IMG/VR virus record: IMGVR_UViG_3300037963_000862
Span: 1 to 36,550 of that record
Strand: one strand, 5' to 3'
Origin: a virus
DNA: 36,550 nt
A program made the position numbers and the translations under genes. The notes under the pieces are model-generated. The model saw only the letters and a list, made by a program, of their open reading frames with translations, made no database searches and had not been told where the DNA came from. Shown here piece by piece: positions 13,752 through 36,550 of the stretch; within the stretch, counting starts at the first letter, position 1, and every line of letters begins with the position of its first letter.

Positions 13752-13781
13752 AAAATACCACATGTGTGGATAACTTGTAAA
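13752..13781 (-). promoter_or_regulatory. Possible sigma70 promoter for the virion operon, leaderless start
   Basis: On the minus strand TTTACA (13781-13776), an 18-nt spacer and TATTTT (13757-13752) form a modest promoter. Transcription would then begin at or within a few bases of the ATG at 13745, which lacks a ribosome binding site, so the mRNA could be leaderless. The spacer holds the palindrome CACATGTG and overlaps a DnaA-box-like site. Confidence 0.35.
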
Positions 13782-13931: not shown

Positions 13932-13942
13932 CACGACCCGTG
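13932..13942 (+). promoter_or_regulatory. Leader hairpin 1 (CACG-ACC-CGTG)
   Basis: A 4-bp stem with a 3-nt loop, 57 nt (loop centre to ATG) before the 55-aa gene. On the template strand the loop reads GGT. It belongs to a family of six such hairpins in the first 3.3 kb of the rightward block. Confidence 0.4.
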
Positions 13943-13993
13943 TACCACGGTTCGCGCTCACCGGTCCACTGTATTAATTATTAGGAGTATATT

Positions 13994-14161
13994 ATGAATA
14001 CAGTTTTATCTTACGCATACAATGGCACTAAGTCATTGTTCTTTATCTTACTTGGTCTTGGAGCTATCCTAGCCAAGGCTTTATATCCTATCTTCAACGA
14101 CCTCATGTTCTTGAGAATCATGGTTGGAGTTCTATTCTTAGCCCTTCTAGGCGTCATCTAA
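13994..14161 (+). CDS. Small membrane protein, 55 aa
   Basis: The ATG follows TTAGGAG at 7 nt. Its 55-residue product has two hydrophobic segments (about 13-32, SLFFILLGLGAILAKALYPI, and 37-55, LMFLRIMVGVLFLALLGVI) joined by a short PIFND turn: a two-pass membrane protein with almost no soluble part. It is the first gene of the rightward block and is followed by a strong inverted repeat. Small membrane peptides in first position are common among early phage host-takeover genes. No family match. Confidence 0.75.
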   Translation: MNTVLSYAYNGTKSLFFILLGLGAILAKALYPIFNDLMFLRIMVGVLFLALLGVI

Positions 14162-14172
14162 CTACTATCATC

Positions 14173-14204
14173 AACGCACAATGGTCCTCGCATCATTGTG
14201 CGTT
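14173..14204 (+). terminator. Inverted repeat after the first early gene
   Basis: A perfect 11-bp stem (AACGCACAATG / CATTGTGCGTT) with a 10-nt loop lies 12 nt after the stop codon of the 55-aa gene. There is no long T run after it, so it is a weak terminator or an mRNA-end stabiliser rather than a classical one. Confidence 0.5.
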
Positions 14205-14492
14205 ATCTTGTTCCGTCTGTTCCACGGGTTGCACCCGATGTGGAACCATTTCGTGGAACCACTCCAAACATGCATGCTTATGCACGTTTGGGGGGCATCG
14301 GAACCTGCTTGGTTCCGCTGTTCCACGTAAAACAAAACTGCGTTTTGCAGACGGACAACGAACCACGGTTAAATTGCCTTTAATCGTGGTTCAAAATTCC
14401 ATGGAACCATGGAACCATAACTATAAGACCGCGGTCTTATAACATTTATCGTGTTCCACGTATCGTGGAACCACATGGAACATGTGGAACCA
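14205..14492. repeat. GGAAC/GTTCC palindrome-rich region
   Basis: About 290 bp without a convincing gene hold 13 copies of GGAAC or its complement, many in the longer form CGTGGAACCA. They are arranged as overlapping inverted repeats: CGGAACC/GGTTCCG around 14299-14317, a 14-bp stem with one mismatch at 14360-14392, GTTCCACG/CGTGGAAC with a TAT loop at 14453-14471, and CCACATG/CATGTGG with a GAA loop at 14471-14487. The density is far beyond anything else in the window. It could be an origin or partition-type iteron array, a protein-binding operator, or a structured RNA. Confidence 0.75.
14422..14441. repeat. Perfect 20-bp palindrome
   Basis: TATAAGACCGCGGTCTTATA is identical on both strands, with a CCGCGG core. 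It sits inside the GGAAC-rich region and differs from its repeats, as an operator for a dimeric DNA-binding protein would. Confidence 0.8.
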
Positions 14493-14499
14493 CAGATGT

Positions 14500-14510
14500 G
14501 TCGTCCCGAC
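14500..14510 (+). promoter_or_regulatory. Leader hairpin 2 (GTCG-TCC-CGAC)
   Basis: A 4-bp stem with a TCC loop, enclosed by a further CAGATG/CATCTG pair (14493-14517), 51 nt before the ATG of the 140-aa gene. The template-strand loop is GGA. Confidence 0.45.
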
Positions 14511-14555
14511 TCATCTGTTCTCATGTCAATTGTTCTTTTAACTATAGGAGTAAGT

Positions 14556-14978
14556 ATGGATACAGCGTATGTCATATCAACTCAGATGTTAGAGAACTAC
14601 GGTGCTCATTCAGAGAACGGCAAGTTCAAAGATGGCAATGCACATTGGAAGTTCAAAGGCGGAACCGATTACATCGTCACCGGCTTTGATCGCCCAGCAA
14701 ACGCTGTTGCGTTTGTGTGCGCTTTCTTGAGCAAGTTCTATGAAGGTAGTAGAGGCATGTGTTGGAAGGAATATCCAACAACCGTTCAGACTCATGATGA
14801 ATGGCTTGCTGATCTACCCTCAATAGAGTCTGATGATCCTCAGACTCTTGAGCACAGGCAGTGGATTGTCGACAACGCACGTTACGTTGACGCCAATGAC
14901 ACTGAGTATCCTTATCCTTTCGCCACATGTGGCGCAAATGGTGAGGCGACTTGGTGTCCAAAAACATTGCGTAAGTAG
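14556..14978 (+). CDS. Conserved hypothetical early protein, 140 aa
   Basis: The ATG at 14556 is preceded by AGGAG at 5 nt. An upstream in-frame ATG at 14451 would extend the frame through the palindrome region and is not used here. The 140-residue product begins MDTAYVISTQMLENYGAHSE and contains WKFKGGTDYIV; it is soluble, with six or so aromatic positions and several cysteines near the end (TCGANGEATWCPK). I recall proteins with a YVISTQ.LENYGAH start in other phages but no function. Located in the early mini-gene run. Confidence 0.75.
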   Translation: MDTAYVISTQMLENYGAHSENGKFKDGNAHWKFKGGTDYIVTGFDRPANAVAFVCAFLSKFYEGSRGMCWKEYPTTVQTHDEWLADLPSIESDDPQTLEHRQWIVDNARYVDANDTEYPYPFATCGANGEATWCPKTLRK

Positions 14979-15033
14979 TTCTTACTCATCTGGCGAACCC
15001 CACCTCGGTTTGTAACTCAAGAGGTAATCTTGA

Positions 15034-15064
15034 GGACAGACACACGATCCCGTGTGACTGTTCC
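15034..15064 (+). promoter_or_regulatory. Leader hairpin 3 (CACACG-ATCC-CGTGTG)
   Basis: A 6-bp stem with a 4-nt ATCC loop (15041-15056), extended by GGACAG/CTGTTCC with a bulge. It lies 51 nt before a 16-codon frame. The sequence after it is similar to that after hairpin 1, sharing GTATTAATTATT and AGGAGTA. Confidence 0.4.
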
Positions 15065-15098
15065 TCGAGTCAGTTGTATTAATTATTTAGGAGTAATC

Positions 15099-15149
15099 AT
15101 GTATATCATTCATTTACCTGATGATGTTATTGAAGAGTTATTCTCATAG
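15099..15149 (+). CDS. Possible leader peptide, 16 aa
   Basis: MYIIHLPDDVIEELFS is preceded by a strong site (TTTAGGAGTAATC) and by leader hairpin 3. Its signals match those of the larger genes nearby, so it is probably translated. It is followed by about 118 nt with several short inverted repeats before the 102-aa gene. It could be a leader peptide for that gene, or a remnant of a longer gene. Low confidence as a functional product. Confidence 0.35.
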   Translation: MYIIHLPDDVIEELFS

Positions 15150-15267
15150 CATCACTTCATGCCAAGGTCACCAGCGGACCGATTAGAAAGCGTCTGGGGT
15201 TAGGGTCCGAACTCTCATGCGGGTAATGAAAAAGCCCCGCACCTTGTTAATTTTTTAGGAGAAATCT

Positions 15268-15576
15268 ATGAAACCAATAGACTATGACACTATAACAATT
15301 GCAATCTTGCAAATCGATATCTACGACGGTAGCATCTACCTTGGCAACGCCGACTACATCAGTTGGTATCATGTCAGCATCGTAGTCGATACAAGAGATG
15401 GCGAGCTTACAGACTATGGTCGAAAGCAAATCGCCGACCTTGCAAAGAAGCACACTCGCGACCCTTGGGAATGCGACAAGCTTCTCCAAGGCAGAGTCTG
15501 TCGCAAAGAACCCACTTACATTAAACACAATGTAAGGATTGACCACTCCGGTCAGACCTTTACGACTGACACATAA
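15268..15576 (+). CDS. Hypothetical early protein, 102 aa
   Basis: The ATG lies 7 nt after TTAGGAG. The 102-residue product starts MKPIDYDTITIAILQIDIYD and has alternating short strands, then a helix (YGRKQIADLAKKH) and a basic segment with two cysteines (CDKLLQGRVCRKE). Soluble, no motif I recognise. A strong terminator follows at 15584, so it ends a small transcription unit. Confidence 0.7.
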   Translation: MKPIDYDTITIAILQIDIYDGSIYLGNADYISWYHVSIVVDTRDGELTDYGRKQIADLAKKHTRDPWECDKLLQGRVCRKEPTYIKHNVRIDHSGQTFTTDT

Positions 15577-15583
15577 TATACTC

Positions 15584-15608
15584 GGGGGAGTTCGCTCCCC
15601 CATTTTTT
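15584..15608 (+). terminator. Rho-independent terminator
   Basis: GGGGGAG, a TTCG tetraloop, CTCCCCC, then A and six T residues, 7 nt after the stop of the 102-aa gene. A textbook terminator for rightward transcription. Confidence 0.93.
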
Positions 15609-15622
15609 AACAGGAGGTTAAA

Positions 15623-15718
15623 ATGCTTGATGAAATCATAGTATGCCCTGTATGTGATACAGTGCATGATTCTCAACACACTCAGTGCCCTGAGTGTGAC
15701 ACCGAGTGGGATATTTAA
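15623..15718 (+). CDS. Tiny zinc-ribbon protein, 31 aa
   Basis: ATG preceded by CAGGAGG at 5 nt. The 31-residue product has CPVC at about 8-11 and CPEC at 22-25, i.e. two CPxC knuckles ten residues apart, the minimum for a Cys4 zinc ribbon. Such mini-ribbons are frequent in phage early regions and may bind nucleic acids or host proteins. It lies just downstream of a terminator, so it needs its own promoter or read-through. Confidence 0.7.
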   Translation: MLDEIIVCPVCDTVHDSQHTQCPECDTEWDI

Positions 15719-15753
15719 TCCCACTCGCTCGCTTCGCTCGCTCGTACATCTGC

Positions 15754-15766
15754 CCACGTCCCGTGG
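15754..15766 (+). promoter_or_regulatory. Leader hairpin 4 (CCACG-TCC-CGTGG)
   Basis: A perfect 5-bp stem with a 3-nt TCC loop, 54 nt before the ATG at 15814. The same 13 bases occur again at 16126. The template strand reads CCACG-GGA-CGTGG. Confidence 0.5.
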
Positions 15767-15813
15767 TCAGCGTGTGTATGGGCGAGTGTTAATTTTATAT
15801 CTATATGGAGTAT

Positions 15814-16080
15814 ATGCTTATGGTTAATTTATATAAATTGTTCACTGATTCTGAGTATTTCGGTGATTATCTTATCGCCAATGATTGCTTTTGGTTTGTC
15901 GATCGTTATTGGTATTGGGTTGTGCGTCCTCATTGCGCAAAATATCATCCCGAATCGCTAGCGATTGTCGAGACTTACCATATGCAATGGGAAGTCACCG
16001 CCTGGACGCTGATGTCTCAGCGTAAAGGCGAACCCCTTGCACACTCTGTGTTGCATGGTTTGGCGTCGTGGGACTGTTAG
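15814..16080 (+). CDS. Hypothetical early protein, 88 aa
   Basis: Aromatic-rich 88-residue protein (YLIANDCFWFVDRYWYWVVRP) with several histidines and cysteines. The start at 15814 is chosen because TGGAG lies 5 nt upstream; an in-frame ATG at 15805 is too close to that site. Soluble or peripheral; no family known. It is preceded by leader hairpin 4 and followed by a repeat of that element. Confidence 0.65.
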   Translation: MLMVNLYKLFTDSEYFGDYLIANDCFWFVDRYWYWVVRPHCAKYHPESLAIVETYHMQWEVTAWTLMSQRKGEPLAHSVLHGLASWDC

Positions 16081-16145
16081 TCCCACTCTCGCTCGGGCCT
16101 TCGGCCCTCGCTCGTTGACAGTTGACCACGTCCCGTGGCAACTGT
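16081..16145 (+). promoter_or_regulatory. Leader hairpin 5 with extended stems
   Basis: After the stop codon come GGGCC-TTC-GGCCC (16095-16107) and then CCACG-TCC-CGTGG (16126-16138), enclosed by ACAGTTG/CAACTGT (16118-16145), giving a 12-bp stem with one bulge. Together with flanking TCCCACTC and CTCGCTCGT, this repeats the arrangement at 15719-15766. The next ATG is 113 nt from the loop, further than for the other hairpins. Confidence 0.5.
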
Positions 16146-16244
16146 TCGTGAGTTCTGTGAACTTGATACGGGTGTATCGAGACACTAACCCCGACACCGC
16201 TCATGATGAAAGTGTTGGATTTACTTACCTAGGAGGTAAACATT

Positions 16245-16484
16245 ATGATGTATTCATTATATATACTTAAGCCCGGCAAAGACGGGAAACAAAGAAGCAG
16301 AGAAATTGGTACTGCTACCACTAACAAAGACGGTAGTATTACTAATTGGTATGACGTTGCTATTCCAACAGATGGACAAGGCAACTTCGTTCCTGTCTTC
16401 ATGAGAGAGATTGTTCAGAAAGAGCAATCTGAATCTCAGAATGTCTCAGCATCTAACGGTGCTGAACAAGTAGCAACTGCCTAA
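16245..16484 (+). CDS. Hypothetical early protein, 79 aa
   Basis: Strong site (AGGAGGTAAAC) before the ATG; the second codon is also ATG, so either could start. The 79-residue product has a beta-rich first half (MYSLYILKPGKDGKQRSREI, then NWYDVAIPTDGQGNFVPVFM) and a polar Gln/Ser-rich tail. It resembles small ssDNA- or peptide-binding folds only loosely. A perfect 10-bp stem-loop covers its stop codon. Confidence 0.7.
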   Translation: MMYSLYILKPGKDGKQRSREIGTATTNKDGSITNWYDVAIPTDGQGNFVPVFMREIVQKEQSESQNVSASNGAEQVATA

Positions 16485-16566
16485 CAGTTGCTACTGGGTG
16501 TGTATCTAGGACAACAAGGAGAGCGACTAGACTAAGTAACGAAGAGTGCAAGACAAAGCACACCCA
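16470..16566 (+). promoter_or_regulatory. Two stem-loops after the 79-aa gene
   Basis: GTAGCAACTG/CAGTTGCTAC (16470-16494, loop CCTAA that contains the stop codon) is followed by TGGGTGTG/CACACCCA (16495-16502 and 16559-16566) enclosing 56 nt with two GGA triplets. No T run, so a structured 3' end or leader is more likely than a terminator. This accounts for the 121-nt gap before the next gene. Confidence 0.5.
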
Positions 16567-16605
16567 CCTTACTTAATTTTAACTACAATATATACGGAGG
16601 TAATC

Positions 16606-16836
16606 ATGAAAAATATTGTATTTTCTACTGCCAGTCTACTTGGCAAAGCAAGTAAGCTAGTTGTTTCGCTAACTGGTTCTACTTTTTCAAGCATCAAAGA
16701 TGGCTACATATCTGGTTATACAGGTATCAATACTGTCAATGATGTTAATCCAGCTGTTGAACAGCCAAAGGAGCAAACTCCAACTGTATCTCGTACTCCA
16801 GTACAACAAGAGTTTGACTTCTCTGACATCAGGTAG
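16606..16836 (+). CDS. Hypothetical early protein, 76 aa
   Basis: CGGAGG lies 7 nt before the ATG at 16606. The 76-residue product has an amphipathic or weakly hydrophobic first part (IVFSTASLLGKASKLVVSLTG), a Gly/Tyr/Asn-rich middle and a Pro/Thr/Gln tail ending QQEFDFSDIR. No family recognised. A terminator follows directly. Confidence 0.65.
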   Translation: MKNIVFSTASLLGKASKLVVSLTGSTFSSIKDGYISGYTGINTVNDVNPAVEQPKEQTPTVSRTPVQQEFDFSDIR

Positions 16837-16841
16837 CGGAT

Positions 16842-16866
16842 GGGGGGCTTCGGCCCCCTTTTTTTT
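16842..16866 (+). terminator. Rho-independent terminator
   Basis: GGGGGC, TTCG loop, GCCCCC and eight T residues, 6 nt after the stop of the 76-aa gene. The second textbook terminator of the early block. Confidence 0.95.
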
Positions 16867-16890
16867 ATCATGTTATTTATAGAGGAGGGC

Positions 16891-17049
16891 ATGACATGCC
16901 CGCTTTGTTTACGTCCCATGGACAATGGGACTCACTTAACCACAGCATTTGACTGCCTGCATCTTAGTTTTTGGCAAGATCAGGTTGAGCAACGTCGTAT
17001 ATGCCAGGAGTGTGAGGTAGTCGCTACATCCTGTAGCGACTGTGATTAA
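16891..17049 (+). CDS. Small zinc-finger protein, 52 aa
   Basis: GAGGAGG precedes the ATG at 16891. The 52-residue product starts MTCPLCLRPMD and holds CPLC (3-6), ICQECE (about 37-41) and a C-terminal SCSDCD, i.e. three CxxC pairs. The middle has a DCLHLSFWQDQVE segment. It looks like a treble-clef or ribbon finger with an extra pair. Its last codons form leader hairpin 6. Confidence 0.7.
   Translation: MTCPLCLRPMDNGTHLTTAFDCLHLSFWQDQVEQRRICQECEVVATSCSDCD
17019..17041 (+). promoter_or_regulatory. Leader hairpin 6 (10-bp stem, TCC loop)
   Basis: AGTCGCTACA-TCC-TGTAGCGACT, a perfect 10-bp stem with a 3-nt TCC loop inside the end of the 52-aa gene and 53 nt before the ATG at 17083. It differs in stem sequence from hairpins 4 and 5 but keeps loop and spacing. 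Confidence 0.5.
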
Positions 17050-17082: not shown

Positions 17083-17253
17083 ATGGACGAGGTAGCTATA
17101 CCCCAAGAGGTGTTAGAAAAAGCCGAAGCAAGTGAAATACAATCGCGAGCTGAATTTATGTCTTCTGGTAAGTATATAAATGACTTCATCAGAAGATTCG
17201 AAGCAATGTCATTACTAAAAGGAGGTAATCATGGCAAACGCAAACCATTTTGA
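17083..17253 (+). CDS. Small hypothetical protein, 56 aa
   Basis: Ribosome binding site AAGGAGG lies 6 nt before ATG 17083. The 56-residue helical product (VLEKAEASEIQSRAEF, then YINDFIRRFEAMSLL) ends by reading through the ribosome binding site and start of the next gene, overlapping it by 23 nt. The overlap implies coupled translation. Function unknown. Confidence 0.7.
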   Translation: MDEVAIPQEVLEKAEASEIQSRAEFMSSGKYINDFIRRFEAMSLLKGGNHGKRKPF

Positions 17254-23360: not shown

Positions 23361-24200
23361 ATGAATATTAAAGATTTAAATGTTGATGATTTGTTTGCTT
23401 ATCTACCAGAAGGTAAGTTTGCAGGTTATTCAATAACTCGAATAGAAGAAGATAAAATAGAAAACCAAACAGACTACATTATCTATCTTCGTAACATAAA
23501 CAACAACAGACTACGTGTCGTTCCATTTGTTGACCTTATTGAGACAGAGTGGCAACCTATGGTTGGTTGGAAGAACTACAATGCTGTTGAACAAGTACAA
23601 GGTCTTATAGACCCAGATGGCAAAGTACATGCTAATTCAAGAAGATTAATTGAGAATGGCATTATTAAAGACAGCGTGCTTATAGAAACAGATCACAAGA
23701 GCTCTAGAAGAAATACAAGAAAAGCAAAGAAACAAGCTGTAAGTAAAGGTATGCGTAACATTATTGTTAACATGTCACAACCAGGCACCATGGGTGCTGC
23801 TATGCAGAAAGCAGTTGAAGAAATAGCACCTGCAGAACCTGTAAAAGAACCTGATACAAAGGTTGTCCCACAGTATGATTACTCTTCTCTTAGTAGATGT
23901 TATTACAGTGACTTAGATATTATTGGTAAAGCGTACTTATCAGCGGACCCAGATTATTCATACGCTGCAGGAAAGTTTCAACACGAATTGTCCAGAACAA
24001 TGCATGAACAATGTCTTGAAGACTTTAGAAATGGTACTAAAAACTTGTATGAAATAAAACAAACACAAATAAGTGTTAACAAAAAGAAACAAACAGGGTA
24101 TCGTGAACCTATAACATGGCTAACAATGGTTAAACGTTTAGGTAAAGCCATATATAAATTTGGAACAACACAAGAGAAAAAGGAGTTTGGAATACTATGA
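23361..24200 (+). CDS. Hypothetical protein, 279 aa
   Basis: Start at 23361 after TGGAGG; upstream in-frame starts lie within the previous gene and have no ribosome binding site. The N-terminal part (1-85) is beta-rich (GYSITRIEEDKIENQTDYII, then YLRNINNNRLRVV). A basic segment follows (about 115-135: KSSRRNTRKAKKQAVSKG), then a Pro/Glu linker and a helical C-terminal part (FQHELSRTMHEQCLEDFRNG). The basic linker could bind nucleic acid. No family recognised. The stop overlaps the next ATG (ATGA). Confidence 0.72.
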   Translation: MNIKDLNVDDLFAYLPEGKFAGYSITRIEEDKIENQTDYIIYLRNINNNRLRVVPFVDLIETEWQPMVGWKNYNAVEQVQGLIDPDGKVHANSRRLIENGIIKDSVLIETDHKSSRRNTRKAKKQAVSKGMRNIIVNMSQPGTMGAAMQKAVEEIAPAEPVKEPDTKVVPQYDYSSLSRCYYSDLDIIGKAYLSADPDYSYAAGKFQHELSRTMHEQCLEDFRNGTKNLYEIKQTQISVNKKKQTGYREPITWLTMVKRLGKAIYKFGTTQEKKEFGIL

Positions 24201-24427
24201 GTTATTGGAACGATGACTACTTTGAAGTAGCAATGAAAGCAGCATTTGACGCTGCAGGCACTATGAAGTGTCCAAGTTGTGGGAGCCGTTCTTGCGGTTA
24301 TACACCACAAACAAAAATATTTGACTGTGCAGGTTGTGGCCACAAGTGGTCCGACGACGTCAAAGCACAGGCCATGAGACCACTACATGAGAAACCTACC
24401 ATGGAGGTAGATTACTCAGATTGGTAA
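24197..24427 (+). CDS. Zinc-ribbon protein, 76 aa
   Basis: The 76-residue product has CPSC (about 25-28), a nearby CGY, and CAGCGHKW (about 44-51): a TFIIS-type zinc ribbon of about 25 residues between helical ends. Coupled to the 279-aa gene (ATGA). Such ribbons in phages often modify RNA polymerase or bind nucleic acid. It is the last gene before the structured 24.4-24.7 kb region. Confidence 0.78.
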   Translation: MSYWNDDYFEVAMKAAFDAAGTMKCPSCGSRSCGYTPQTKIFDCAGCGHKWSDDVKAQAMRPLHEKPTMEVDYSDW

Positions 24428-25586: not shown

Positions 25587-27382
25587 TGCAAAAAATTTAT
25601 TTAGACTTCGAAACATACTATGACGTACAACTTACTCTCAGTAAGATGTCTACCGTACAATATATCAACCATCCTGACTTTAAGGTATGGGGTGTTGGTA
25701 TCAAGGTAGAAGACGGTCCTACTGAATGGTACAACGAAGAAGAAACGCCAGACATACTCGCACAAATAGATTGGGATGAGACTGCGGTCGTATGTCATAA
25801 CACTCTGTTTGACGCGTACATACTCACACAATACTTTGGCTATAAACCTGCGTTCTATTATGATACAGCAGCTATGGCCAGAGGACTGTATCCGAACATG
25901 TCCGCTAGCCTTGCAAAGTCATGCGAACGAGAGTTTCCAAACGATCTAAGTATGCGTAAGGGAGAAGAACTTGTGAATGCTAAAGGTGTACGAGACTTAG
26001 ACCCTGAACTTGATTCGCAAATCGGTGGTTACTGTGTCCAGGACGTGGACCTTACGTACGCACTCTTCCAAAGCTACATTCAGAACTATCCGGACAAAGA
26101 ACTTCGCATCATAGATTTGACTGTACGAATGTTTGTAGAACCAAAACTTATGTTGGACCGCGGACTACTTACAACTTACAAAGATGAGATGGTAACGCGC
26201 ACACAAAATGCGATCCAGGCGTCGGGGCTTACACGAGAAGTATTGGCTTCACAAGTTAAGTTCAAAGAACATTTAGAATCATTAGGTATAGTCGTACCTA
26301 CAAAGAAAAGTCCAACTACTGGCCTACAGATACCTGCGTTCGGTAAGAACGACAGTGCTTATATACAAATGTGTCAAATGTACCCAGAGTACTCGGACAT
26401 TTGGGAAGCTCGTGAGCTGGTAAAGTCACGTATAGAAGAAACCAGAGCTCAACGATTTATAGACTCTACCAACCCTGATGGTACGTTCAGTGTACCGCTG
26501 CGTTACTACGCCGCACACACAGGTAGATTTGGTGGCTCGGACAAAATCAACTTGCAGAACCTGCCAAGAGGTTCAACACTCAGACGTGCAATCATGGCCC
26601 CACCGGGACAACGATTGTACATAGCTGACTTATCTAACATCGAGGCGCGTATGCTAGCATGGTTGGCAAAAGAGTACGATCTCGTGCAGGCTTTTGCCAC
26701 AGGTCGTGACGTATACTGTGAGTTTGCATCTCAGATATATGGTCGAACGATTACTAAAGATGACAAGTTAGAAAGATACGTAGGTAAGACAGCTATACTT
26801 GGTCTAGGGTACGGTATGGGGGCCGATAAGTTTCAGATGACACTTAAGACTGGCTCCCCTTCCGTTGATGTTTCGGACACTGTAGCCCAGACCATCGTGG
26901 CTCAGTACCGTGGCATGTATCCAAACATACCAATGCTGTGGTCCAGCATGAAAGATTCACTCTTTCAAATGTTGAACCCTCGTGGTGTAGGACTAAAGTA
27001 TGGTCCACTAACAATCGAACGACAAGCGCTAGGCTTGCCAAACGGTATGCACTTAAAGTATCCAGGTCTTTATTATTCTGCTGGAAACTTTATGTACAAA
27101 ACAGATCGCAGCGTGATTCGTACACACGGACCTCGAGTTACAGAGAATGTCGTACAAGCCCTGTCACGGCTGGTTATTACCGATCAAATGTTAGACATAC
27201 AAACATTACCTCAGGTAGATATTGTTCTACAGGTACACGACGAAATTATAGCTATTGGTTCAGAACATAATGCTGATGCTACAATGGATAGAATTATTCA
27301 AATTATGCGTACGCCACCCGAATGGTGTAGCGATCTACCGCTCGACGCCGAGGGGGGAGTGAGTAAAGTATATGACAAATAA
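25586..27382 (+). CDS. DNA polymerase I family (family A) with 3'-5' exonuclease, 598 aa
   Basis: Exonuclease motifs are LDFET (D7, E9), VCHNTLFD (about 70-77) and YCVQDVD (about 149-155). Polymerase motif A is ADLSNIEARMLAWL (about 347), motif B is GKTAILGLGYG (about 399) and motif C is VHDEI (about 550). Motif A has SNIEAR where bacterial Pol I has SQIELR, as in many phage enzymes. There is no 5'-3' exonuclease domain. It replicates the phage genome with the PrimPol-helicase two genes downstream. Coupled to the preceding small gene; overlaps the CsrA gene by 11 nt. Confidence 0.95.
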   Translation: MQKIYLDFETYYDVQLTLSKMSTVQYINHPDFKVWGVGIKVEDGPTEWYNEEETPDILAQIDWDETAVVCHNTLFDAYILTQYFGYKPAFYYDTAAMARGLYPNMSASLAKSCEREFPNDLSMRKGEELVNAKGVRDLDPELDSQIGGYCVQDVDLTYALFQSYIQNYPDKELRIIDLTVRMFVEPKLMLDRGLLTTYKDEMVTRTQNAIQASGLTREVLASQVKFKEHLESLGIVVPTKKSPTTGLQIPAFGKNDSAYIQMCQMYPEYSDIWEARELVKSRIEETRAQRFIDSTNPDGTFSVPLRYYAAHTGRFGGSDKINLQNLPRGSTLRRAIMAPPGQRLYIADLSNIEARMLAWLAKEYDLVQAFATGRDVYCEFASQIYGRTITKDDKLERYVGKTAILGLGYGMGADKFQMTLKTGSPSVDVSDTVAQTIVAQYRGMYPNIPMLWSSMKDSLFQMLNPRGVGLKYGPLTIERQALGLPNGMHLKYPGLYYSAGNFMYKTDRSVIRTHGPRVTENVVQALSRLVITDQMLDIQTLPQVDIVLQVHDEIIAIGSEHNADATMDRIIQIMRTPPEWCSDLPLDAEGGVSKVYDK

Positions 27383-27557
27383 AAACCTTATCCTGACTAG
27401 AAAGAAAGGAGATAAAGTTATCATACAACAAGGGGACCAGGTCGTCTGTGTTGTAACCGTAACTAATATAACACCTACCCAATGCAAATTAGGGTTTCAG
27501 GCAGACTCTTCTGTACGTATAGACAGAGAGGAGGTATACTCAAAGAAGGAGATTTAA
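27372..27557 (+). CDS. csrA: CsrA/RsmA-family RNA-binding regulator, 61 aa
   Basis: The 61-residue product is the same size as bacterial CsrA and aligns along its length: NLILTRKKGDKVII matches the first strand LILTRRVGETLMI, and VRIDREEVY matches the conserved VHREEIY. The RNA-contact residues of E. coli CsrA near L4, R6 and R44 are kept; R7 is Lys here. CsrA dimers bind GGA in hairpin loops or ribosome binding sites and block or stabilise mRNAs, mainly for carbon metabolism, motility and biofilm genes. Set between DNA polymerase and primase genes and overlapping the former by 11 nt, it is expressed during replication. It could re-direct host translation or control phage mRNAs. Confidence 0.9.
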   Translation: MTNKNLILTRKKGDKVIIQQGDQVVCVVTVTNITPTQCKLGFQADSSVRIDREEVYSKKEI

Positions 27558-34271: not shown

Positions 34272-36032
34272 TTATATAGTATACACCTTCAAAGCTTTTG
34301 CTTTGCCTTTTACTTTTATTTCTCGTACAAAGCTAGCTTCCACACCAGGTGGTAACTTTTTGTACGTACTTTCTCCAATCAGTATATCTACACCTGCTTC
34401 TTTAGTTGCACTCTCTAGTCGTGCAGCTGTATTAACTGCGTCTCCTATTGCTGAATAATCAAACCTGTTATCTGATCCCATGTTACCTACTACTGCTGGG
34501 CCAGTGTTTACACCGATACCAATAGCTATAGGCTCGGACAACTCTTTTTGCATCATTGCTATTCCTGTACGAATGTCTTGGGCACAGGCGACAGCACGTT
34601 GTTCATGTTCATCTAAATCTAGGGGGGAGTTAAAGATGGCCATACATGCGTCGCCTATGAACTTGTCAACCATACCACCATGAGCTTGTATACATTCAAC
34701 TTGTTCAGTTAATACTCTATTCATAATTTCTGTTACTTCTTCAGGCTCTAGCTTTTCGGACAGATTTGTGAACCCCCTGACGTCGGTGAACAAGAACGTA
34801 CAAGTTCTACGCTCTCCTCCTAACTTAAGTAACTCTGGGTTGTTTTGTAATCGTGCAACTTGCCTGGGGTCCAGGTAGTGCTCGAACTGTTTCTTTATCT
34901 GTTGTCTCAATTTATATTGTTCCCCAAACCTTAACCAGAACTCTTGTACTGATATAAGAGTCATTGATACCATACTATAACTAAAATCTATAAGTATATT
35001 ATTTCGTGCAAACCATACGGCAGCTGCACCAGATAACACATACATCCCAACGACTCCAACAATACTGCTGACCACGGGCAACGAACGAACTATAACTGTT
35101 AGTAATAATAGACACCCTACTAATATAAGTAATTCATATAGTAGACTTGCACCCGGTATTTGAGGCACATCTACAGTCAAGCTCTCAGCTACAGCAGCTT
35201 GTACTTCATGCGGATACAACAATCCTACTGGCGTAGCTATTTGGGGCATGATCCCTTTTGCACTCACACCCACAAACACAAACTTATCTTTTACATCTAA
35301 CTCTTGTAGAGTTGTTTTTGCTGTATCAGACCATGTAATCCATCGTCTGCCTATCTCATCTACTGGTATCTCTGCATAGTTAGGCAAAGTAAGTTCTACA
35401 ATCCCACCTTCCTGGCCCTTAATAATGTACGTATCTGACCCAGATATTATCTTCATAACTTCTATACCAAACGATGGGGTCCAACCATCTGGTGTTTGAA
35501 GTAACAAAGGCATCCTTCTAACAAGTTGATCTACATCAGTTCGTGCAGCTGCTAGCCCCTGAGAACTAGCTTGTGCAAGTTCGTACGTGTTTTCTACTAC
35601 ACCCCGTGCAGCAATACCTTGTACGGGAACTCCATCTCCTAGAATTACTGTGCCTGTAGTCGGTGGGTAGTTGTTACTGTCGTTTTCAAACATTGCAAGT
35701 ACGCTAGGCGTGCCCGCTAGTATGTTCGCAAAAGCTTTATCGCCACCAAATCTATCTTGTTGTGGAAAAGATATAACCCAACCCACACCCCAAGCACCTG
35801 CCTCCATAATATCTAAATGTATACGAGCAAGGTCCTGTCTAGGAAAAGGCCACCCGCCCATGCGCTCTACATCCTCTTCTGTTATATCTAACGTTACAAA
35901 GTTGCCTGAAGGTTCTGGTATCTGTACGAGAGCGTCAAATGTTTTTAACTTGAGTATCTCAAGTGCCTGCCAGTTGAATAATAAAGGTATGCATAAGATT
36001 GGTATGCTAAGTAACGAAATCCATTTCTTCAT
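34272..36032 (-). CDS. CHASE2-domain class III adenylate cyclase, 586 aa
   Basis: An N-terminal membrane segment (4-20) and a CHASE2 sensor domain (about 25-275: FDALVQIP, VTLDITEEDVERMGGWPFPR, then FVFVGVSAKGI) lie outside the membrane. Three membrane helices (about 290-370) and the catalytic domain (about 400-585) follow. The last has TFLFTDVRGFTNLSE (first metal Asp), DKFIGDACMAIF (second Asp and the adenine-selecting Lys) and FDYSAIGDAVNTAARLE (adenine Asp, transition-state Asn and Arg). All residues needed for ATP-to-cAMP conversion are present, so it is predicted to be active and ATP-specific. It overlaps the upstream gene by ATGA. A complete sensor cyclase is most unusual in a phage. 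Confidence 0.93.
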   Translation of the reverse strand: MKKWISLLSIPILCIPLLFNWQALEILKLKTFDALVQIPEPSGNFVTLDITEEDVERMGGWPFPRQDLARIHLDIMEAGAWGVGWVISFPQQDRFGGDKAFANILAGTPSVLAMFENDSNNYPPTTGTVILGDGVPVQGIAARGVVENTYELAQASSQGLAAARTDVDQLVRRMPLLLQTPDGWTPSFGIEVMKIISGSDTYIIKGQEGGIVELTLPNYAEIPVDEIGRRWITWSDTAKTTLQELDVKDKFVFVGVSAKGIMPQIATPVGLLYPHEVQAAVAESLTVDVPQIPGASLLYELLILVGCLLLLTVIVRSLPVVSSIVGVVGMYVLSGAAAVWFARNNILIDFSYSMVSMTLISVQEFWLRFGEQYKLRQQIKKQFEHYLDPRQVARLQNNPELLKLGGERRTCTFLFTDVRGFTNLSEKLEPEEVTEIMNRVLTEQVECIQAHGGMVDKFIGDACMAIFNSPLDLDEHEQRAVACAQDIRTGIAMMQKELSEPIAIGIGVNTGPAVVGNMGSDNRFDYSAIGDAVNTAARLESATKEAGVDILIGESTYKKLPPGVEASFVREIKVKGKAKALKVYTI

Positions 36033-36550
36033 CCTGACCCCTGTGTGATTGTAATAGTGGAGTTGCCCCCACCGTTTACTACAATCTGTTGATATTTACC
36101 GTCCTGTATTAATATTATAGTGTACCCCTGTGACGCATCTACGGTCAACTGAGCATTCTGCACAACCTTTCTTTGAAACGCTATTGCATCTCCCTGTAGC
36201 AATGTAACTATCTGTGTCTCTAAGTCCTGTCCTATTTCTGTACCTTGTACCAATGTGCCTGTGGATAAGTTGTCCGAATCAAGTTGGTCTATCTCTTCTA
36301 TAATCGCTAATAAGTCTTCAAAAAAGTTTACATCTAAAAAGTTTATATCTAATTCAGTAAACTCTAGTGCGTCTTCAGCTAGGTAGTCCTGCTCTAGTTC
36401 ATTAAACTCTAAATAATCTATGTCTAGTATTGCCCCGCTATCTGCTACGGACGCTGTGGATGTTTCTGTGGATAAGTTTTCTTCGTCTGGTGGGCTAACA
36501 ATTAACATGTTATCTATGACATCTAAAGTAAGGTCTAAAATAACAGGTGT
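36029..36550 (-). CDS. Acidic protein of unknown function, 5' end beyond window
   Basis: The frame is open to the right edge (174 codons including the stop are visible), so the N-terminus is missing; the ATG at 36508 is probably internal. The visible part is strongly acidic in the first 110 residues, with repeated LEF/LDF-type blocks (DYLEFNELEQDYLAEDALEF), then a beta-rich end with a Gly/Ser/Thr tail (GGGNSTITITQGSG). CHASE2-cyclase genes in bacteria are often paired with FecR-domain proteins and this could be such a partner, but I see no clear FecR motif. It is coupled to the cyclase gene (ATGA). Confidence 0.75.
   Translation of the reverse strand, partial: TPVILDLTLDVIDNMLIVSPPDEENLSTETSTASVADSGAILDIDYLEFNELEQDYLAEDALEFTELDINFLDVNFFEDLLAIIEEIDQLDSDNLSTGTLVQGTEIGQDLETQIVTLLQGDAIAFQRKVVQNAQLTVDASQGYTIILIQDGKYQQIVVNGGGNSTITITQGSG

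Follow-up and report, generated by a model that had tools for sequence, protein, structure and literature searches.

The virus record IMGVR_UViG_3300037963_000862, a linear sequence of 36,550 bases analysed whole and called hereafter the window, comes from a marine virus with a bacterial host. Its head module is oriented leftward and comprises the capsid (phrog_334), portal (phrog_156) and terminase (phrog_38) genes. An early region of small genes of no known function is oriented rightward, from about 13.9 to 17.2 kb, and beyond it lie genes for an AAA ATPase, a DUF2201/vWA protein, DNA polymerase A, a DUF5906 protein, a helicase and others. An earlier note on this DNA had described six small hairpins before the early genes as possible promoters of the type read by the virion RNA polymerase (vRNAP) of phage N4. 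A hairpin was indeed present at all six places, and their location before the first early genes was confirmed.

All six hairpins are given here on the + strand, with the loop in brackets. Hairpin 1 (13932–13956) has the core CCGTG(TAC)CACGG at 13938–13950, centred on 13944, plus a lower stem, and lies 50 nt before the ATG at 13994. It had been described with an ACC loop; the TAC reading is preferred, because this form is conserved in relatives (L101, L103, G003 and G014) and the 4-bp ACC form is not. Hairpin 1 also abuts a weakly terminator-like segment, AACC-TTGTTTT-GGTTTTTT. Hairpin 2 (14493–14517), CAGATG-T-GTCG(TCC)CGAC-T-CATCTG, is centred on 14505, 51 nt before the ATG at 14556. Hairpin 3 (15034–15063), GGACAG-A-CACACG(ATCC)CGTGTG-A-CTGTTC, does have the 4-nt loop assigned to it, and stands about 50 nt before the ATG at 15099 of a 16-codon open reading frame (ORF). 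Hairpin 4 (15748–15772), CTG-C-CCACG(TCC)CGTGG-T-CAG, is centred on 15760, 54 nt before the ATG at 15814. Hairpin 5 (16118–16146), ACAGTTG-A(bulge)-CCACG(TCC)CGTGG-CAACTGT, is centred on 16132, 113 nt before the ATG at 16245, and was found at the same position in L104, L106, L114, L117 and G002. Hairpin 6 (17019–17041), AGTCGCTACA(TCC)TGTAGCGACT, is centred on 17030, 53 nt before the ATG at 17083.

The typical unit is 25 nt long and is built of an upper stem of 4–6 bp and a lower stem, usually separated by a bulge or by a single pyrimidine-pyrimidine mismatch; hairpin 6 departs from it by its unbroken 10-bp stem. The note had given a spacing of 50–57 nt to the start codon for five of the six; the distances measured from the loop centres are 50, 51, 50, 54, 113 and 53 nt. 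Repeated leaders had also been proposed downstream of the hairpins. What is common is a G located 12 nt past the loop centre, usually within (C)TGTT, and pairing may account for it no less than sequence does. The note would place transcript starts about 11 nt after the loop centre. When the frequency check proposed in the note was made, three perfect TCC-loop hairpins (stem of at least 5 bp) were counted in the early region, against a mean of 0.04 in 3.3-kb shuffles and a maximum of one in 1000 shuffles; none was detected in the rest of the window.

Relatives were collected via their AAA and small-terminase proteins, which gave a sample of 88 non-redundant early regions (182 kb). Hairpins fitting the 25-nt model numbered 153 in this sample, versus 23 in shuffles, and TCC-loop hairpins 25 versus 0.4. 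A set of 29 distinct sites, all with an NNC loop on the sense strand by selection of the set, was inspected in detail. Their loops were TCC (19), TAC (6), TTC (2), ACC (1) and CCC (1), so that 27 of the 29 read TNC. The stems were diverse yet paired (CCACG, GTCG, GCTCG, CCTCG, ACCTCA, CAACG, CAATG, CTCGCG and more): 238 of the 264 pairs scored were Watson-Crick, two were G-T and three A-C. The pair closing the loop, read on the sense strand, was GC in 18 sites, AT in 10, TA in one and CG in none. The G at 12 nt past the loop centre was found in 26 of the 29 sites and, as it usually closes the stem, its conservation may again be due to pairing.

Several features bear on whether the hairpin acts as DNA or as RNA. 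A search tolerating G-U pairs brought no larger gain in sites than one tolerating A-C pairs (36 versus 33), and this scarcity of G-U speaks against RNA, since a freely evolving RNA hairpin should use such pairs. DNA folding energies differed between strands in 19 sites, and the template-strand hairpin was the stabler in 18 of them, whereas other hairpins of the same regions were split 21:15 between template and sense; because the elements are related to one another, these strand and pairing counts are not fully independent. The asymmetry arises because a mismatch between pyrimidines in the sense hairpin corresponds to one between purines in the template hairpin, where A-C becomes G-T. Sigma-70-like promoters were at chance level (11 found versus 9.6 expected), with no + strand match at the hairpins. 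From the sequences, a template-strand DNA hairpin is favoured over an RNA leader. The dismissal of CsrA in the earlier note also stands, because the loop in the mRNA reads UCC, not the GGA of a CsrA leader, and TAC and TTC loops occur in relatives. The phage does encode a CsrA homologue (27372–27557, + strand); its gene is flanked by those for DNA polymerase and the DUF5906 protein, and 36 related loci or contigs contain a match to it.

Homologous leaders of close relatives differ in structure. Some have TTC or TAC loops, others a form called class 2 (CGNCA-GTCGCTA-CGCTTTG-TGNCG), and in others a 4-bp stem carries a loop of ATA, CTA, ACA or AAA. Genome G001 is of class 2; its terminase and capsid are the nearest to those of the window among the genomes examined (94–95%). 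Co-segregation of hairpin class with other genes was measured in 11 genomes of known class, with classes labelled by eye and nearest neighbours taken by protein similarity. Nearest neighbours shared the hairpin class in 11/11 cases for P200, 11/11 for P184, 11/11 for P750 and 10/10 for P2000 (p=0.004, which is near the floor for this split of classes). These four genes form a virion cassette. In the window, P200 (2808–3410), P184 (2250–2804, in the place of N4 gp52) and P750 (2–2248, truncated at the contig end and corresponding in place to N4 gp51) are on the − strand; P2000, the gene that follows, falls past the left contig end and was seen in relatives, for example in L314 (7001–13234, + strand), where it encodes about 2,000 residues. 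Relatives whose P2000 reading frame is long encode 1,742–3,087 residues. The cassette order parallels N4 gp52-gp51-gp50, gp50 being the vRNAP.

Other genes did not follow the class: TerL 3/11, TerS 4/11, p252 0/10 and AAA 2/9, and similarly 1/10, 1/8, 2/10 and 3/8 for P124, which is directly beside P2000, P141 and fibre-region genes. For terminase, small terminase, p252, AAA, vWA and e17083, p ranged from 0.65 to 1.0. The scaffold-position gene was weakly associated (p=0.002; 0.60 versus 0.54), and capsid (p=0.06) and portal (p=0.08) showed a trend at most. Simple linkage does not explain the co-segregation, because the cassette is at least 11 kb away from the early region and non-associated genes lie between them.

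An N4-type vRNAP, as the earlier note required, was not found. The profile phrog_2206, for which N4 served as positive control and scored over its full length, matched nothing in the relatives, and in phage KPP25 gave an unconvincing 7 bits (E=0.007). An iterated profile of 11 diverse vRNAPs, searched on all ORFs, found none in any family member, including the near-whole genome G012, whereas it recovered the vRNAPs of LIT1 (Litunavirus), EcP1 and marine Schitoviridae at E<1e-250. The window and G044 (47.6 kb, same cassette type) together cover the gene complement of this class, and no polymerase was detected in them by this profile. No match was obtained by tblastn with N4 gp50, gp15 and gp16, and RNAPII (gp15/gp16) was also unseen in the profile search. 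A PF00940 search gave no match, but neither did its positive control, so that it carries no information. A scan for T7-type and DxDGD motifs returned polA and chance matches only. The giant vRNAP and heterodimeric RNAPII of Schitoviridae, both present in N4, were therefore not recognised in the family. The capsid had been cited in support of N4-type transcription; however, the isolate capsids nearest to that of the window are those of Kochitakasuvirus (51%), and KPP25 is likewise without significant vRNAP match.

The elements most likely work like N4 early promoters, as far as sequence comparison can tell. To class them with the promoters of the N4 vRNAP would nevertheless be wrong, since neither the cognate enzyme nor the closing pair it requires was found when looked for. 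As no N4-type polymerase is recognisable, the reader would be something else, probably a co-injected protein. Most probably it is an ejected protein of the cassette, either an unrecognised polymerase or a recruiter of the host enzyme. We consider it rather likely, though well short of assured, that these are hairpin promoters of the single-strand type, read by a virus-specific factor that the cassette encodes. In the sequence of events that we infer, the entering early DNA would become negatively supercoiled and the template strand would extrude the 25-nt hairpin, presenting a GNA loop (GGA, GTA or GAA, for TCC, TAC or TTC on the sense strand). The factor, probably from P200-P184-P750-P2000, which by synteny with N4 would be co-ejected with the DNA, would then recognise the hairpin. 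Transcription would start just downstream, at the conserved G, about 40 nt before the start codon.

A number of observations weigh against this proposal. N4 and LIT1 hairpins are closed by C-G, whereas here the closing pair is G-C or A-T in 28 of the 29 sites and never C-G. Here, in contrast to N4, the lower stem would extend over the presumed start. The cassette correlation comes from 11 genomes with classes assigned by eye, to which an ancient two-lineage history could contribute, and in more distant phages with TAC loops (for example G029 and L143) P750 or P2000 is of an unrelated type. Besides the lack of any recognisable RNA polymerase in the family, P2000 carries an invariant HExxH...E core and is likely, by its sequence, a zinc peptidase. 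Profile-profile comparison of P2000 with vRNAP revealed no similarity, and a model of its middle 1,191 residues (pLDDT 72) matched no solved fold at E<=0.001, and no polymerase. P2000 matched nothing in Pfam and nothing convincing in the PDB either, and was rejected as a recognisable polymerase; viral matches of the middle-domain model include a "large polyvalent protein". The model of P750 was of too low confidence (pLDDT 46) to be read. P750, or the parts of P2000 on either side of the modelled middle, may yet contain a polymerase of an unrecognised kind.

Other explanations were weighed against hairpin promoters read by a cassette factor. Host RNA polymerase could transcribe from upstream promoters, with the sense-strand hairpin stabilising or regulating the mRNA, perhaps bound by a phage protein. 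The position about 50 nt before start codons, the stem, whose length stays close to 11 pairs and which is interrupted midway by a mismatch as RNA hairpins bound by proteins are, and the 113 nt between hairpin 5 and its ATG would all suit such a leader. We nevertheless find it unlikely, given that G-U pairs are nearly absent, that in 18 of the 19 differing sites the template strand folds more stably, that sigma-70 promoters do not exceed chance and that the loop set is that of N4-type DNA promoters. Equally doubtful is a host-range module, in which hairpins and cassette would both be host-adapted, for example if a host factor reads the hairpins, and would co-vary without contact. Among the relatives tabulated, early accessory genes such as e14556 and e16606 turned up in the N4 class alone, which fits this idea, but the fibre-region genes, the usual determinants of host range, do not follow the hairpin class, and neither do the flanking TerS, p252 and AAA.

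True N4-type promoters, served by an N4-type vRNAP too diverged to be seen, would account for the N4-like loops, strand and position, for the cassette order, and for the kinship of the AAA and vWA proteins with N4 gp24 and gp25 (27% and 32% identity). However, a profile of such sensitivity to known vRNAPs found none here, P2000 does not align, and its middle domain matches no solved polymerase, so that this explanation appears quite improbable. Least credible of all are duplex operators, that is, inverted repeats bound by a dimeric repressor. CACG-TCC-CGTG does recur in the window, but in any single phage the half-sites vary without constraint, and it is the pairing and the loop that persist; an operator should keep its half-sites, not the loop.

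If hairpins read by a cassette factor are indeed the early promoters, N4-like hairpins without N4-like polymerase would mean either an undescribed class of RNA polymerase inside virions or a new means of directing host RNA polymerase to hairpin DNA. More tentatively, and with less than even confidence, the elements could constitute a second DNA-hairpin early-promoter system outside Schitoviridae, read by a different virion-ejected factor (a polymerase of unrecognised fold or an activator recruiting host RNA polymerase), whose specificity diversifies with the ejected proteins. Such diversification would give several allelic promoter classes within one phage genus. The hairpin classes and their matching cassettes amount to natural swaps.

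Other elements were noted in and around the early region. An intrinsic-terminator-like hairpin (14173–14204, + strand) lies between the first and second units, and further ones are at 15584–15601 and 16842–16859. Terminators were not significantly enriched upstream of the elements (5 of 29 versus 3.5 expected), so that any argument from terminators applies to the window only. A cluster of GTTCCAC / GTGGAACC repeats (14219–14490) precedes hairpin 2; at least two copies of GTGGAACC are carried by 54 of the 88 related early regions, and they are possible origin or regulator sites. A perfect DnaA box, TGTGGATAA, is found at 13765–13773, between small terminase and early region, and 24 of the 88 relatives have one no more than 260 nt from the start of the small-terminase gene. 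Immediately before hairpins 4 and 5, further hairpins at 15724–15744 and 16088–16114 are each followed by CTCGCTCG; they are repeated in L104, L106, L114 and L117 and are perhaps an unusual terminator. The palindrome TTACCT-AGG-AGGTAA (16225–16239), kept in many relatives, spans the Shine-Dalgarno sequence of the gene at 16245 and would hide its ribosome site.

An Rfam search gave no match and a tRNA search found none. Near the right end, a gene for a CHASE2 and adenylate/guanylate cyclase protein (34272–36032, − strand) adjoins a FecR-like gene (36029–36550). The right end had been considered as host DNA, and this was dropped, because the pair recurs at 74–81% identity in three related phage contigs of 57–61 kb, the size of full-length relatives (G005, G011 and G012), and also in G044; the protein is a phage-borne cyclase kept in part of the family. 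One 60.8-kb relative, L403, was binned in a metagenome-assembled genome labelled Neomarinimicrobiota, which could point to the host or could have arisen by faulty binning.

Hairpin DNA promoters are also known from the F plasmid, where the Frpo-type single-stranded promoter is used by host RNA polymerase; its hairpins are much longer and are not known to have a conserved triloop. In the literature surveyed, N4-type phages with a giant polymerase are the only ones for which promoters formed by a hairpin of a single DNA strand are reported. The N4 early hairpins at 564 and 4553 are AAGAAGC(TCC)GCTTCTT and AAGCTGC(TCC)GCAGCTT, with GG at 11–12 nt, and the N4 P1 oligonucleotide has the template loop GAA, hence TTC on the sense strand (PMC12633501). 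Likeness to N4 lies in the 3-nt template loop GGA or GAA, the perfect core of at least 5 bp and the G just downstream. Beside the N4-type stem of 5–7 bp with a 3-nt loop, the upper stem here is of 4–6 bp or longer, with one 4-nt loop in the window. The N4 enzyme contacts G at −10, −11 and −8, and a sheared G-A pair forms inside the loop (PMC4496689). The GNA template loop supplies the G at −10, whereas the C-G closing pair with the contacted G at −8 is lacking and a purine-pyrimidine pair stands in its place. The N4 stem is in one part, with its G at 11 nt from the loop centre, whereas that of the window's family is longer, in two parts, with the conserved G at 12 nt. N4-type promoters are further marked by dependence on supercoiling and SSB and by recognition on the template strand, to which the better folding of the template strand here relates only indirectly.

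In LIT1, TTC and TAC loops on 4–7 bp stems were found 59–77 nt before the ATG of genes 1, 2, 12 and 13; promoters had been predicted before genes 1, 12 and 13 (PMC3715699). Loop and orientation are therefore as the earlier note had proposed, TCC and TTC being common to N4, and TTC and TAC to LIT1. LIT1 and LUZ7 (PMC3715699) differ by their C-G closing pair and by the giant vRNAP that they encode. Kochitakasuvirus KPP25 (L099) resembles the window's family by its genome of about 64 kb and its related capsid, terminase, polA and primase. Its hairpins have the sense loop GGA rather than TCC, with no function reported. They have 9-bp stems, GTGATTCGC(GGA)GCGAATCAC at 24030 and GCGCGCTGC(GGA)GCAGCGCGC at 24331, and each sits about 51 nt before the ATG of one of the first early genes. 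KPP25-like Pseudomonas phages offer an isolated test system.

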